Shown here: positions 17,667-49,733 of the stretch, piece by piece
Layout: every line of letters begins with the position of its first letter
Position numbering within the stretch: position 1 is the stretch's first letter
NCBI GenBank assembly: GCA_937873695.1
Contig: CALMYL010000007.1
Span: 1-64,000 of the forward strand
Origin: an uncultured Ignavibacteria bacterium
Lineage (GTDB): Bacteria > Bacteroidota > Ignavibacteria > Tepidaquicellales > OLB5
Length of the DNA stretch: 64,000 nucleotides
Direction: 5' to 3'
Notes under the pieces: model-generated
Seen by the model: the letters and a program-made list of their open reading frames with translations, nothing else
Databases searched by the model: none
Told to the model about the DNA's origin: nothing
Made by a program: the position numbers and the translations under genes

Positions 17667-18929
17667 ATGATAACATTCGGAAGATTTTCGGACAGCTTTA
17701 AACCAAAAGCTAAAATAGATGACTGGAACACCTCGGAGAGGCTTTTCCTTGAGAAGAATTACATGGCAAGCTACGAGGCGTTCTTTAAATATCTAAGTGA
17801 TGATGAAGTTAAAAACGTTACCTGGAAGCGCGAGGGTGATAGAATTGATTTCCAATTGCTGCAGGGCTCTAAAATTGTGCATGGCACGATTGCCAATGGC
17901 GAGGTGATCTGCGAAGCGGATGTTGCGGTGTACGATAAACTTTCCGTGGCGTTCATGCGCAGGCTAATGGAGATGAATTACTCTATGTACTACAGCCGTT
18001 ATGCCATGAAGGATAACAGAATATGCATTAAGTTCGATAGCAAAATACCGGCGGCTCCGCCTCGCAAGCTGTACTACGGCTGGAAGGAGCTTGCAACCCG
18101 CGCCGATAAACAGGATGACCTGCTGGTGGATGATTTCGTTATGCTGAGATCAACCGGCAACACTCACGCCGAACAATTGCCCGATACCGAAAAAGAGATC
18201 AAATACAATTTCTACAAAAGCTGGCTTGATAAAACCATATCGCGCATTAATGAGCTTAACGAAGACGCGTTCTCAGGCGGGATATCATACCTGCTGTTGA
18301 ACACAGCCTACAAGCTTGACTACCTTATTGCCCCCGAGGGCACTTTGATGAACGAGCTTGAAAAAATGAGCTGGGATTACTTCGCGAAGGATAACAAACC
18401 ATACGTTGAAAAGAACCGCAGAATGAAGGAGGCGCTTCAGAAACTTGCCGATAAGCCAAAGCCCGATGTACTGGAGGATCTTTACAGGGTGAAATCAACT
18501 TTCGGTATTGCGAACCCCGCGCCGCACCAGGCGGTGGTTGACCTGTTTGCCAATAACCTGCAGAATGTAAAATGGTATATAGATAATAATTATCCTGATA
18601 TAGCAATTGTGCTGTATGAGTATCTTGCTACATACTGCCTTTTCAGTTACGGGCTGCCAAAACCGGATGCGAAGCTTTTCCATCTGATGCTGAATGTTAC
18701 CAACCAGGATTACTTTACCGCGCTTGGCGTGGGTGAGCAGTTATATGATGCCGCAGGCGGGAAGTTCAGTGAGCAGGTTATAATTGATAAAGTAAACGAG
18801 ATCATCAGAGAGGGTATTGATCTTTATCCGGAGCTGAAGTTCAATACGGCGAATTTGAAGTTTGATTCACTGGTAAGTTTTTTGAGGACGTATGTTGCTG
18901 AGATCCAGCAGTTGAATTATAATCAGTAG
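17667..18929 (+). CDS. Uncharacterised 420-residue protein with YbjN-like N-terminal region
   Basis: A cytosolic-looking protein without signal peptide or membrane helix. The N-terminal third (FSDSFKPKAKIDDW..., AVYDKLSVAFMRRLMEMNYSMYYSRYAMKDNRICIKFD) resembles the YbjN/type III secretion chaperone-like fold, which also seems present at the C terminus of the trypsin-like protease encoded at 19256. The rest is helical with no recognised domain. Its last 39 coding bases are duplicated downstream (19021-19059). No enzymatic motif is visible; a chaperone or adaptor role is a guess. Confidence 0.7.
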   Translation: MITFGRFSDSFKPKAKIDDWNTSERLFLEKNYMASYEAFFKYLSDDEVKNVTWKREGDRIDFQLLQGSKIVHGTIANGEVICEADVAVYDKLSVAFMRRLMEMNYSMYYSRYAMKDNRICIKFDSKIPAAPPRKLYYGWKELATRADKQDDLLVDDFVMLRSTGNTHAEQLPDTEKEIKYNFYKSWLDKTISRINELNEDAFSGGISYLLLNTAYKLDYLIAPEGTLMNELEKMSWDYFAKDNKPYVEKNRRMKEALQKLADKPKPDVLEDLYRVKSTFGIANPAPHQAVVDLFANNLQNVKWYIDNNYPDIAIVLYEYLATYCLFSYGLPKPDAKLFHLMLNVTNQDYFTALGVGEQLYDAAGGKFSEQVIIDKVNEIIREGIDLYPELKFNTANLKFDSLVSFLRTYVAEIQQLNYNQ

Positions 18930-19142
18930 GTTCAATTAACAATTAACAATTATCAATGAGCAATGAGCAATTGGCCTTCCTCCTTCGGAGTAAGGTTTCG
19001 TCCGGCACTGCCGGACTCAATATGTTGCTGAGATCCAGCAGTTGAATTATAATCAGTAGGTTCAGTTAACAATTATCAATGAGCAATGAGCAATTGGCCT
19101 TCCTCCTTCGGAGTAAGGTTTCGCCCGGCTTCGCCGGGCTCA
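18891..19142. repeat. Tandem duplication of a gene end plus repeats
   Basis: Unit 1 (18891-19020) starts inside the last codons of the gene ending at 18929 and continues through AATTAACAATTATCAATGAG repeats and a CTCCTTCGGAGTAAGG segment. Unit 2 (19021-19142) repeats it with a small deletion and a few changes. The second copy carries a non-functional duplicate of the gene's C-terminal codons and stop. The CTTCGGAGTAAGG...CCGGGCTCAA segment recurs at about 21653-21697. Confidence 0.8.
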
Positions 19143-19255
19143 ACAATGAGCTTACTTTCATGGGTAAGAGTTTCGTTTTGGGTGAGCCGGACACAAAATT
19201 TAAAACGCATTGACGCAGTCAATGCACTCCAAAAAAACAAAGATAAAAATTATAA

Positions 19256-21619: not shown

Positions 21620-21697
21620 CAACAATTAACAATTAACATTGAACAATGAACCTTCCTCCTTCGGAGTAAGGTTTCGCCCGGTTAAACCGGGCTCAAC
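21618..21697. repeat. Solo AATTAACAATTAAC repeat plus CTTCGGAG element after a stop codon
   Basis: Directly after the TGA of the lipoprotein gene lies ACAACAATTAACAATTAAC..., followed by CCTCCTTCGGAGTAAGG and CCCGGTTAAACCGGGCTCAA. It matches the arrangement at 18930-19020, including position next to a stop codon. Confidence 0.65.
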
Positions 21698-21761
21698 GGA
21701 TTAAATCATATTATATCAAATTCGATTTTTACTATAATTATAAAACACAGTAATCTTTTTA

Positions 21762-36350: not shown

Positions 36351-36890
36351 TAGTTTACAGTTGATAGTTGATAGTGAACAGGTGATAGCTGATAAGTGAA
36401 AATTGATAATTTAAATCTAATTCTTAACTAAATATAAATTAAAAGGAGATTAAAATGAAAACCAGAAGTATTGTTGAAGAAAAATCTTACGCATTTGCTT
36501 TACGGATAATCAAATTGTACAGACATTTAGCGGAAGAGAAAAAAGAGTATGTGCTAAGCAAACAAATATTACGATGCGGTACATCAATTGGAGCAAACGT
36601 CAAAGAAGCGCTGCAGGGTGAATCAAAAAATGATTTTATTCATAAATTAAGCATCTCGTTAAAAGAAGCATCAGAAACTGAATATTGGCTGAATCTATTG
36701 CATGATTCACATTATATAACTACAAAATCATTTGAATCAATTACCAATGAGTGCGTTGAACTCATAAAATTAACAACAGCAATAATTAAAACGAGCAGAA
36801 AAAACATCAGGAAAAAATAACTGTAAACTGTAATCTATCAATTGTAATCTATCAACTGTAAACTTTCAATTGTGAACTATAAACTATATT
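36345..36890. mobile_element. IVS-like insertion: four-helix-bundle gene between inverted repeats
   Basis: Left arm 36345-36409 and right arm 36821-36890 are imperfect inverted repeats. Read in the same sense they share a TTGATAGTTTACAGTTGATAG-like core, with one mismatch near its start, and further GATAG units. Between them lies the S23-type gene 36455-36820. The unit splits a metal ABC operon between ATPase and permease. Its left edge includes the ATPase stop codon and its right edge touches the permease TTG start. The same plan recurs at 47752-48200. Calling it mobile is an inference. Confidence 0.6.
36455..36820 (+). CDS. Four-helix-bundle protein (S23 / 23S rRNA intervening-sequence family)
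   Basis: A 121-residue member of the TIGR02436/PF05635 family. The hallmark is ILRCGTSIGANVKEALQGESKNDFIHKLSISLKEASETEYWLNLL at residues about 43-88. The family was first found encoded in hairpin intervening sequences of 23S rRNA, and it includes Avd of diversity-generating retroelements; its members bind nucleic acid as pentamers (family knowledge). A strong AAAGGAG ribosome-binding site precedes ATG. It sits between inverted repeats inside a transporter operon. There is no reverse transcriptase nearby. Confidence 0.93.
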   Translation: MKTRSIVEEKSYAFALRIIKLYRHLAEEKKEYVLSKQILRCGTSIGANVKEALQGESKNDFIHKLSISLKEASETEYWLNLLHDSHYITTKSFESITNECVELIKLTTAIIKTSRKNIRKK

Positions 36891-46506: not shown

Positions 46507-47772
46507 ATGAGATCAATAATAATATCAATAGGTGATGAGGTGTTAATAGGGCAGGTTGTAAATACCAACGCTGCCTGGCTTGGCAAAGAGCTTCTTGCCA
46601 TTGGTATACCTGCTGCCCGCATGGTTACCGTTCCCGATAGTGAAAAAGAGATCCTTAAGGAATTCAAATCAGCGTTCAGGGATTACGATGTAATTGCTGT
46701 TACCGGCGGGCTGGGTCCTACCCACGATGATATAACGGTAAAGACAGTCGCGAAGTTCTTTAAAAGCAAATATGTGCTTAACGAAAAGGTACTGAAGCAT
46801 GTAAAGAATATATTTGCCCGCAGAAATATTAAAATGCCGGCGGTTAATATAGGGCAGGCACTTGTGCCGGAAATTGCGCAGGTACTTGATAATAAAACCG
46901 GCACTGCACCGGGTTTACTGATAGATAAGGCGGGAAAAGTGTTTTGCGTTATGCCGGGTGTACCGTATGAAATGAAATATATCAGCCAAACGGGGCTGCT
47001 TCCTTATCTTACAAAAAAATACAAAAAGAAAATTAAGAAAGTCATACGGCAGAAAACACTTCATACAATTGGCATTGGTGAATCACTGCTTGCCGAAAAG
47101 ATAGGCGATATAAATAAAATTGTCCGCAAAGGAAAAGATTTTGAAGTGAAGCTCGCTTTTTTGCCATCAAATTACGAAGTCAGGCTGCGCATTACGGCTA
47201 TAGCTGCCAATAGATCACGGGCTGAAAGGCTGATTGGCGATGCCGAAAGAATTATTAAACGCAAAGCAGGTGATTATATTTATTCGTTCAGCGAAGGCTC
47301 AATTGAAAAGACAACAGGCGCGCTGCTGAAGAGGAAAAAGCTTACAATTGCGGCAGCAGAATCATGCACGGGCGGCTTGATAACAAGTAAACTGACGGAT
47401 ATTGCAGGAAGCTCTGATTACGTAATGGATGCGATTGTGGCATATTCCAATGAAGCCAAGCGCAGGCTGCTTGGTGTGAAAGCTGAAACCATAAAGAAAT
47501 ACGGAGCGGTAAGCAGACAAACCGCCATTGAAATGGCGCGCGGAATAAGGAAACGCTCTAAAACAGATATTGGTATATCTGTTACGGGTATAGCGGGTCC
47601 CGGCGGTGCAAGGCCCGGCAAGCCAGTTGGACTGGTATGGATAGGGTACTCGGATAAGAAAACAACTTTTGCAAAGGATTTTATTTTTACAAAGGACCGT
47701 TTAAGGAATAAAGATATAATGGCAAAGATGGCGCTTGAAATTGTGAGGAGACAATTAACAATTATCAATTAA
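46507..47772 (+). CDS. cinA: CinA family nicotinamide-nucleotide amidohydrolase
   Basis: A 421-residue protein. The N-terminal molybdopterin-binding-like domain has VTGGLGPTHDD near residues 65-75, and the C-terminal PncC-type amidohydrolase has AAAESCTGGLITSKLTD near 285-301. It recycles NMN formed by NAD-dependent ligase. Its last six codons and stop (QLTIIN, then TAA) are encoded by the CAATTAACAATTATCAATTA repeat that opens the inserted element at 47752. The native C terminus has therefore been rewritten. Confidence 0.95.
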   Translation: MRSIIISIGDEVLIGQVVNTNAAWLGKELLAIGIPAARMVTVPDSEKEILKEFKSAFRDYDVIAVTGGLGPTHDDITVKTVAKFFKSKYVLNEKVLKHVKNIFARRNIKMPAVNIGQALVPEIAQVLDNKTGTAPGLLIDKAGKVFCVMPGVPYEMKYISQTGLLPYLTKKYKKKIKKVIRQKTLHTIGIGESLLAEKIGDINKIVRKGKDFEVKLAFLPSNYEVRLRITAIAANRSRAERLIGDAERIIKRKAGDYIYSFSEGSIEKTTGALLKRKKLTIAAAESCTGGLITSKLTDIAGSSDYVMDAIVAYSNEAKRRLLGVKAETIKKYGAVSRQTAIEMARGIRKRSKTDIGISVTGIAGPGGARPGKPVGLVWIGYSDKKTTFAKDFIFTKDRLRNKDIMAKMALEIVRRQLTIIN

Positions 47773-48200
47773 CAATTATCAATGATCAATAATTTTCTAT
47801 ATATATAATAATGAAAGAAAATGTTGTTTTAGAAAAAAGTTATAGTTTTGCGGTAAACACAATAATTGCAGTACGTAGCTTAAATAAAACAATTGATACC
47901 TATGTTCTGGTTAAGCAGCTTTTAAGAGCGGGTACATCTGTTGGCGCTAATATTGAAGAGTCTCAGGGAGGATATTCAAAGAAAGATTTTAAGCACAAAT
48001 TAAACGTAGCATATAAAGAAGCCAGGGAATGCAAGTATTGGATACGTCTAATAATAGATACTCAAATAAGTACTAAGCAGCAGATTGTCGCATTTCAGAA
48101 ATTATTAAACGATGCTGATGAGCTCTGTAAAATTATTTATTCAATTGTAAATTCGACAAAATAATTTTATTGTTCATTGATAATTGATAATTGTTAATTG
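47752..48200. mobile_element. IVS-like insertion: second four-helix-bundle gene between inverted repeats
   Basis: Left arm 47752-47793 and right arm 48170-48200 are inverted repeats. In the same sense both start CAATTAACAATTATCAATTA; the left has one extra 7-base unit, and then both continue TCAATG...CAATAA. The gene 47811-48164 lies between them. The left arm overlaps the end of cinA, and the right arm ends 7 bases before the MlaF-like start. The layout matches the unit at 36345-36890, although the repeat sequences differ. Confidence 0.65.
47811..48164 (+). CDS. Four-helix-bundle protein (S23 / intervening-sequence family)
   Basis: A 117-residue protein of the same family as the 36455 gene (LLRAGTSVGANIEESQGGYSKKDFKHKLNVAYKEARECKYWIRLI at residues about 40-84). 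The two are only moderately similar, so they are not recent copies. It is the only gene inside the repeat-bounded unit 47752-48200, lying between cinA and an ABC ATPase gene. No ribosome-binding site is visible before ATG. Its role in the unit (binding the hairpin RNA or DNA) is an inference. Confidence 0.92.
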   Translation: MKENVVLEKSYSFAVNTIIAVRSLNKTIDTYVLVKQLLRAGTSVGANIEESQGGYSKKDFKHKLNVAYKEARECKYWIRLIIDTQISTKQQIVAFQKLLNDADELCKIIYSIVNSTK

Positions 48201-48207
48201 AAAAGAA

Positions 48208-48957
48208 ATGATAGAAATTAAAAATCTTGTAAAGAGTTTTGGCGATAAACCCGTACTCAGGGGTGTTGACCTTAATATTGAAGAGGGCAAAACAAATGTA
48301 ATTATCGGCGCCAGCGGATGCGGCAAATCTGTGCTGCTTAAGCACATTGTTGGATTACTGAAGCCGGATGCGGGCCAGATACTTATTGACGGTGAAGATA
48401 TTACCGCAATGAACGAAAAGCAGATATACGCTATCAGGAAGAGGTTCGGCTTTCTGTTCCAGAGCGCGGCGCTGTTTGATTCAATGTCAGTTGGTGATAA
48501 TGTTGGCATAGCCTTAAGGGAAAACACACTTATGCTGAAGGCGGAAATAGATAAAGTAGTCACAGAAAAACTTGGACTTGTAAACCTGCCCGGCACAGAA
48601 AAACTTATGCCATCGGAGCTTTCCGGCGGTATGAAAAAGCGCGTGGGATTGGCAAGAGCGCTGGCAACAAATCCCCAGTACATTTTGTATGATGAACCCA
48701 CAACTGGACTTGACCCCATTACCAGTGAAACTATTGATGAGCTGATGGATTCCGTTGCAACCAGGAAAGGACTGGGAGTAACTTCTATTATAGTAACACA
48801 TGATATTTTTACGGTTTATGAAATAGGCGACCGGGTCGCAATGATGTATGAAGGCAAGGTACACTTCAACGGCACTCCTGAAGAGCTCAGGGCAACAAGT
48901 GATCCTATAGTGCGGCAGTTCCTGGAGCGGACTGATGAGAAGAAGGCGAAGCATTGA
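48208..48957 (+). CDS. MlaF-like ABC transporter ATP-binding protein
   Basis: A 249-residue ATPase with Walker A GASGCGKS, the FLFQSAALFDSMSVGDNVG segment typical of MlaF/Mkl ATPases, signature LSGGMKKR and Walker B YILYDEP. It would power phospholipid transport between the membranes together with MlaE and MlaD, but neither gene is in the neighbourhood. The start lies just after the right arm of the inserted element, so its original promoter or operon link may have been altered. Confidence 0.9.
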   Translation: MIEIKNLVKSFGDKPVLRGVDLNIEEGKTNVIIGASGCGKSVLLKHIVGLLKPDAGQILIDGEDITAMNEKQIYAIRKRFGFLFQSAALFDSMSVGDNVGIALRENTLMLKAEIDKVVTEKLGLVNLPGTEKLMPSELSGGMKKRVGLARALATNPQYILYDEPTTGLDPITSETIDELMDSVATRKGLGVTSIIVTHDIFTVYEIGDRVAMMYEGKVHFNGTPEELRATSDPIVRQFLERTDEKKAKH

Positions 48958-49062: not shown

Positions 49063-49140
49063 TTTCAAAGAGTGGTTTGCTAAAAATGGAGGTGTAATTT
49101 CAATTATTGATTATGTGTATAAAACTGAGTATTTTTGTGT

Positions 49141-49335
49141 ATGAGAACAAACATTGAAATAAACAACAAGCTGATGGGCAAAGCCAAAAGGCTTAGCCGT
49201 TTAAAAACCAAAAAAGAAATTGTTAATACGGCTCTGGAAATGTATGTGCGAAACCTGGACAAAAGATCGATCAAAGAGTTAAAGGGAAAGATAAAATGGA
49301 TCGGCAGCCTGGATAAAATGAGGCAAACAGGTTGA
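49141..49335 (+). CDS. vapB: VapB-type antitoxin
   Basis: A 64-residue protein of the short VapB (DUF2191-type) family: MRTNIEINNKLMGKAKRLSRLKTKKEIVNTALEMYV. It forms a ribbon-helix-helix that binds its own promoter and neutralises VapC. An in-frame ATG two codons earlier (49135) is possible, but family members start MRTNIEI. Its TGA overlaps the TTG start of the toxin gene (TTGA). Confidence 0.88.
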   Translation: MRTNIEINNKLMGKAKRLSRLKTKKEIVNTALEMYVRNLDKRSIKELKGKIKWIGSLDKMRQTG

Positions 49336-49733
49336 AAGAAGTTGTGATCGATACATCTGTGTGGATCGATTTTTTGAACGGAGCTGAAAACAGGCACACT
49401 GCAGCAATGACAAAGATCCTTGACGGCGATACTGAAGTTTTTATCACACCGCAGATAATTCAGGAAATACTACAGGGCATAAATAGTGATAGCGAACATG
49501 ACCTACTGAAGGAAAAGCTTCTCTCGCTAAACGTATTGAGCATAGATCCAATTGAATCTGCAATAGGGGCAAGTTCACTCTACAGATCACTCAGAAAAAA
49601 AGGTTCAACTATCCGAAAGACAAACTATGTTCTGATAGCTTATTATTGTTTGTACTTCAACATTCCCATACTTCATAAAGACCGGGATTTTGAGAAAATT
49701 GCAAATCATTTCAAGTTAAAAATTTACAAATAA
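49332..49733 (+). CDS. vapC: VapC-type PIN-domain toxin, one acidic residue replaced
   Basis: A 133-residue PIN-domain ribonuclease. D7 (VIDTSVWIDF), E45 (QEIL) and D117 (HKDRDF) of the metal site are present. The third acidic position, usually Asp in an N-D-x-L-I-A motif, is Tyr here (Y99, KTNYVLIAYYC). This may weaken or abolish cleavage of its RNA target. The start is TTG, overlapping the antitoxin stop by three bases. Family membership is clear; activity is doubtful. Confidence 0.88.
   Translation: MKEVVIDTSVWIDFLNGAENRHTAAMTKILDGDTEVFITPQIIQEILQGINSDSEHDLLKEKLLSLNVLSIDPIESAIGASSLYRSLRKKGSTIRKTNYVLIAYYCLYFNIPILHKDRDFEKIANHFKLKIYK

Follow-up and report, generated by a model that had tools for sequence, protein, structure and literature searches.

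The unit that lies between cinA and an ABC transporter ATPase gene in the window (the whole 64-kb stretch of DNA that was analyzed) is, with a probability that we put at roughly 60%, a single copy of a small mobile cassette, widespread and about 450 bp long, in which an S23 protein goes with its own repeat array. A bounded unit, its presence or absence at given junctions, the re-use of single slots, the linkage of gene and array and a rule of orientation were all observed. The mode of movement is inferred.

The cinA-side unit

The unit and the two host genes beside it are laid out as follows.

46507 to 47772, + strand: cinA, the co-directional host gene upstream
47752 to 47793, + strand: left arm, six 7-nt units of CAATTAA type, the first 21 nt being the CinA tail QLTIIN and its stop
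47811 to 48164, + strand: S23 gene (PF05635, TIGR02436), encoding a four-helix-bundle protein of 117 aa
48166 to 48200, + strand: right arm, five 7-nt units, inverted, with the unit variants in the same order
48208 to 48957, + strand: ABC transporter ATPase (MlaF-like), the host gene downstream

The left arm consists of the units CAATTAA, CAATTAT, CAATTAA, CAATTAT, CAATGAT and CAATAAT, and the reverse complement of the right arm reads CAATTAA, CAATTAT, CAATTAT, CAATGAA and CAATAAA. The unit variants are mirrored, with the same outside-to-inside order in both arms, and the arms therefore look like copies of each other. Their best ungapped pairing joins 47759-47792 to 48167-48200 and is 91% complementary over 34 nt. 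QLTIIN is encoded by 47752-47769, followed by TAA, and the S23 protein scores 85.5 bits against PF05635 (cut-off 33.8) and 97.6 against TIGR02436 (cut-off 24). A first-pass annotation made from the letters alone had placed inverted arms around an S23-family gene between cinA and an MlaF-like gene, with the last six CinA residues and their stop in the left arm; both statements were confirmed. The arm length of 20 nt that it quoted was too short, as the arms are longer and are tandem heptamer arrays. The ATPase is assigned to the MlaF type only by the judgement of that annotation and our own.

S23 is the sole gene inside the unit and no transposase was found there. Complementary ends around an S23 ORF, terminal inverted repeats as in an insertion sequence or MITE and tandem 7-nt units as in STRR or heptameric repeats are all present. 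Just downstream, at 49140-49733, a pair of small ORFs has, by eye only, the look of an antitoxin and a PIN-type toxin.

Other arrays in the window

A first unit of the same plan and several gene-less arrays are found upstream.

18933 to 18971, + strand: gene-less 7-nt array of CAATTAA type, 3 nt past a stop codon, with a second copy at 19063-19094
21621 to 21651, + strand: gene-less 7-nt array, 1-2 nt past a stop codon
24270 to 24306, + strand: gene-less 7-nt array (GTGAAAC/GTGAGAC), 1-2 nt past a stop codon
36345 to 36415, + strand: left arm of the first unit, built of 7-nt units of TTGATAG type and sharing bases with the stop codon of a ZnuC-like gene
36455 to 36820, + strand: S23 (PF05635) gene of the first unit, 121 aa
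36819 to 36885, + strand: right arm of the first unit, made of CTATCAA/CTGTAAA units; its end lies immediately ahead of the TTG start codon of a ZnuB-like gene

Inverted repeats with a score of at least 18 and a spacing of 20-700 nt occur exactly twice in the 64 kb, at the cinA-side and 36345 units, and were absent from ten block-shuffled windows. Hardly any tandem period other than 7 rises above chance in the window. As the first reading had it, the 36345 unit combines the same layout with other arm sequences (TTGATAG-type rather than CAATTAA-type units), and the two S23 proteins are only moderately similar, at 43% identity. Three of the four gene-less arrays (18933, 19063, 21621 and 24270) begin 1-4 nt past a stop codon. 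A second dispersed repeat (CCTTCCTCCTTCGGAGTAAGGTTTCG...CGGGCTCAAC) was noticed at 18972-19143 and 21652-21698, behind three gene-less heptamer arrays, and one array lies within a 123-bp tandem duplication at 18891-19143.

Empty, filled and re-used junctions

Four junctions were compared between genomes. The znuC/znuB-like junction is empty in G003, where stop and start overlap (GTTAGTTGATGG). It holds the S23 gene of the 36345 unit in G000, G001 and G012 and an S23 gene of another clade with 8-nt arms in G005, while scars are left in G002 and G004. The start codon of the ZnuB-like gene (36889 in the window; loci L268-L276) is ATG in the empty G003 and TTG wherever a cassette or scar is present, except in G005. 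At livJ/livH, a 4-nt stop/start overlap is seen in five genomes and a gap of about 2 nt in others; eight genomes carry an S23 gene with 8-nt arms, G028 carries one of another clade, and in G030, G020 and G017 the inverted arrays enclose no gene. The carA/carB junction occurs empty, filled and truncated. The cinA/ABC-ATPase junction is filled in G000, G004, G005, G006 and G011, holds arrays or remnants without an S23 gene in G001, G002 and G008, and lacks the cassette in G003 and G007. As the differing occupants of the znu-like and livJ/livH junctions show, a single junction is usable by different cassettes, of other S23 clades or as gene-less arrays. The first-pass annotation had proposed to define target sites from empty loci. 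Empty znu, liv and car sites could indeed be read, but no clean target-site duplication was readable at them, since the arrays blur the ends.

The CinA tails of array-bearing congeners end in QLTIIN, QLTMSN, QLTMSD or QLTIDNYQ, the array giving the last residues and the stop, and the tails without an S23 gene are KLINV and QLTPKSQQL (G003 and G007). The claim that the element rewrites the end of cinA is thus borne out only in part: the array does supply tail and stop, but the tail is variable anyway and the G007 locus may be a scar. A CinA orthologue with exactly QLTIIN but no element, which would have spoken against the claim, was not seen.

Arrays and matched arms at S23 genes

S23 loci were collected from the genus and order of the source organism and 89 with usable flanks were scored. 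As a large part of them are orthologous, the counts do not represent independent events. Arrays with a score of at least 12 were detected in 68.5% of the 220-bp S23 flanks, compared with 0.6% of shuffled flanks, about 9% of stretches one kb away and 9.6% of the flanks of ParE toxin genes in the same order. The periods are 7 (or 14), 8 or 9 and usually equal on the left and right. Own left arms matched their inverted right arms with a mean score of 20.6 (9.4 for swapped pairs) and exceeded the 95% quantile of swapped arms in 80% of the elements, a level reached by none of 26 ParE control genes. The result that would have refuted the earlier proposal, a lack of enrichment of inverted repeats beside PF05635 genes, was looked for and not found. 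Right arms of more than 150 bp occur in some loci (among L118, L099 and L138), and in L118 the 9-nt array can be read without a stop in frame with the gene that follows (KLYTLYTLY...).

Among named genomes, a scan turned up at least 581 relatives, of which 80 were kept; this set is mostly one S23 class. The kept relatives come from Bacteroidota, Ignavibacteriota, Planctomycetota, Verrucomicrobiota, Gemmatimonadota, Acidobacteriota, Chloroflexota, Cyanobacteriota, Bacillota, CPR groups and others. The majority have 7-nt arrays, often AATTACG-like and inverted between the two sides, and most of about 95 named loci from many phyla bear arrays. Own arms exceeded the 95% swap quantile in 39% of the kept set, in which nearly all units are alike and some arms are poorly matched. 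Units on cyanobacterial plasmids include GGGAGTA, GCAATTC, GTAATTC and AAGTAAA, the Gemmatirosa unit is GC-rich, and a few named records have no clear arms. In the S23 tree, which is poorly resolved, phylum labels are scattered as in shuffles. The earlier inference of a recurrent class of element, drawn from two cases, is upheld by the own-order and named loci, most of which have arrays.

Placement and host genes

The S23 gene follows a co-directional gene in all 84 scorable cases of the own order and in 67 of 71 named loci. The exceptions include antisense cyanobacterial copies at cas2/cas1 and nrdB/nrdA. Gene-less arrays also begin 1-4 nt past stop codons, and in the sampled DNA 15 of 36 arrays have an edge that is no more than 30 nt from a stop (7% for random positions). 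On Nostoc and Anabaena plasmids (L264, L266), cas2 and cas1 are separated by an antisense S23 gene, and these copies look like insertions. On a Nostoc edaphicum plasmid (L344), an S23 gene with GGGAGTA arms lies antisense between two genes for ribonucleotide reductase subunits.

The strict orientation with the upstream gene would also suit a module useful to the host, in which S23 binds array DNA or RNA and regulates its operon, or plays a role in defence, and is retained by selection. Purifying selection on S23 genes at long-held sites in the genus (dN/dS of about 0.02-0.2 in most unsaturated pairs, at sites kept through the genus) agrees with this, and S23 genes have been reported in cas loci and listed as cas-associated (PMC3936711). 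Yet presence is patchy at each junction and decays to scars, the host operons are functionally unrelated and the defence library gave no notable match. A host module is considered unlikely, even though strong purifying selection remains a caveat to the mobile cassette, as it could also mean a host function.

Arms as DNA or RNA

Another reading treats the unit as an RNA cassette: base pairing of the arms in the mRNA would give a stem for RNase III to cut, and the S23 message would thereby be removed or split off. The insertion would then be harmless or regulate the operon, with the pairing under selection. Gene, size and stem plan are those of the intervening sequences (IVS) of rRNA, and the cassettes stand in transcribed orientation. 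Arms held as an RNA stem are expected to show more G-U than A-C mismatches on the sense strand. No such excess was detected in 136 elements (158 G-U v 175 A-C); the counts are equal in effect, which speaks against an RNA-maintained stem. At one slot, own arms were no better matched than arms paired across species, and continuing concerted evolution of the arms was rejected. Gene-less lone arrays without a strong partner also exist, which does not fit selected pairing. The lack of a G-U bias, the lack of continuing concerted evolution and the mirrored unit order together point to arms that were made together at the DNA level and then drifted. This argues against the RNase III scheme of the rRNA intervening sequences without excluding it, and an RNA cassette is considered improbable here.

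Linkage of array and gene

Across different junctions, S23 identity was correlated with array-unit similarity (Mantel r 0.43; null maximum 0.14), and at 50-70% S23 identity the period is common to 99% of element pairs. The correlation between the own order and other taxa was r 0.37 (null maximum 0.25). Class I S23 proteins of the order have period 7 in 30 of 30 cases and some other clades have 8 or 9. Several phyla have AATTACG-like units at junctions that are unrelated to each other, from which it follows that the unit mostly travels with the gene. Copying of the unit from the host target was tried as an explanation and rejected: a likeness between unit and target is seen at znu, cinA and car, not at liv, and the car and cinA "empty" sites used for this comparison are possibly scars. 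Array density rose with the number of S23 genes in 13 sampled genomes (rho 0.65, p 0.016; rho 0.58, p 0.049 with the window left out), as estimated from sampled genome pieces, not whole genomes.

These data bear on the view that slippage comes first, i.e. that DNA polymerase slippage makes heptamer arrays and S23 merely lands in or between them. The bacterial heptamer excess has been ascribed to slippage (PMC4692102, PMC4679880), and arrays without S23 are common. Evidence against it comes from clean empty junctions without an array, from a unit that follows the S23 clade across unrelated junctions and taxa, from the mirrored order of variants between two arms and from the rarity of arrays in sampled genomes with few S23 genes. 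Of the alternatives, we give this one the least credence.

The S23 protein and a possible mechanism

The predicted monomer of the 47811-48164 protein (pLDDT 94.8) resembles the solved S23 structures 2rld (BT_0352; TM 0.87) and 2gsc (TM 0.83). Avd of the Bordetella phage diversity-generating retroelement (DGR; 4dwl, 8ub7) has the same four-helix fold and is more distant (TM about 0.7). The Avd profile did not match the 47811-48164 protein, and the 36345-unit protein reached 16.5 of 80 bits. We know of no catalytic motif in the S23 family. A homopentameric ring is known for the S23 protein Xcc0516 (PMC4990558).

Several sources of an enzyme or origin were searched and rejected. The sole reverse transcriptase gene found in the genome lies at about 145 kb on contig C20 in a separate DGR-like locus (L414), where it adjoins ORFs with a common GSGLSYD...VPARLC segment; with one such gene at a separate locus and no tie to the cassettes, the genome's own DGR was dismissed as the engine. 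A phage-borne origin was not supported, as two phage records matched, one of them without visible arms, and a scan of viral contigs with this protein returned none. A defence system was set aside because PADLOC gave no useful match.

For the mobile cassette, the mechanism that we propose is inferred throughout. An S23 ring of Avd fold would recognize its own array, most likely in the form of DNA (a single strand or a hairpin), and would steer copying of the cassette into stop/start junctions by means of a borrowed enzyme or replication. Expression of the S23 gene would then rest on read-through from the gene before it. Lone arrays and inverted arrays that enclose no gene may be deletion products or non-autonomous copies. 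The cinA cassette would be old and vertically inherited in part of the genus, with its left array supplying the end of CinA and the stop. That S23 binds, that the cassette moves and that an enzyme is borrowed are all inferences; no movement was seen, the unit contains no recombinase, and gene and array may correlate merely by moving together, with no binding involved.

Relation to known systems

S23 genes, rRNA intervening sequences and heptamer repeats are each already known. The heptamer excess, STRRs, GGGAATC and TAACTGA have been published (PMC4692102, PMC4679880, PMC2670836), two of these papers do not mention S23 genes (PMC4692102, PMC4679880), and S23 genes are described in rRNA insertions of CPR bacteria (PMC11270868). 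Apart from the paper on the Coxiella IVS, none was found that connects S23 genes with heptamer arrays; subscription papers and preprints were not covered and prior notice is not excluded. Knowledge of heptameric repeats goes back to 1990 in cyanobacteria, and that of their excess in many bacteria to 2007; apart from polymerase slippage, little has been offered to explain them. The S23 proteins have been without a known function since 1993. Should array and S23 belong to a single element, these two questions would merge and become directly testable. S23 genes inside cas, restriction and nrd loci would then be readable as insertions rather than parts of those systems, and an annotation rule would follow for many small genes and gene-end tails. 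The data suggest a little-noticed mobile element behind an unexplained repeat type. A wider conjecture, which is tentative and in our estimate somewhat more likely to be wrong than right, is that S23 cassettes form a recombinase-less mobile class whose ring has the 7-9 nt array and gene copied into stop/start junctions, and that this one system has produced both the S23-bearing rRNA IVS and the heptameric repeats dispersed in cyanobacteria, Bacteroidota, Xanthomonas and others.

The 23S rRNA IVS with an S23 ORF of Leptospira and Coxiella (PMC4990558) likewise places an S23 gene within complementary ends in about 430 nt, and in Coxiella heptameric repeats (GACAGAT) adjoin the S23 gene, as here, lying upstream of S23p according to the Coxiella paper. 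The cinA-side unit differs by standing between protein genes (cinA and the ABC ATPase) and not in rRNA, by an array unit that varies with the element and by showing no sign of an RNA-pairing constraint. The STRR and heptameric repeats of cyanobacteria, Xanthomonas (GGGAATC, with 70 inverted pairs, after stops and before starts; PMC4692102) and Beggiatoaceae (TAACTGA; PMC4679880) share intergenic 7-nt tandem units, often after stops or before starts, whereas the arrays of S23 cassettes surround members of a single gene family and vary with the clade of that family. Avd, the DGR accessory protein, has the four-helix fold in common with S23 and acts on nucleic acid with a reverse transcriptase; unlike a DGR, the S23 unit lacks reverse transcriptase, template repeat and variable repeat. 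REP/REPIN sequences with RAYT, and MITEs, differ in their ends, which in S23 cassettes are 7-9 nt tandem arrays that vary between elements, and RAYT is an HUH nuclease, which S23 is not. They resemble the cassette in having one gene within inverted short repeats and gene-less copies elsewhere.
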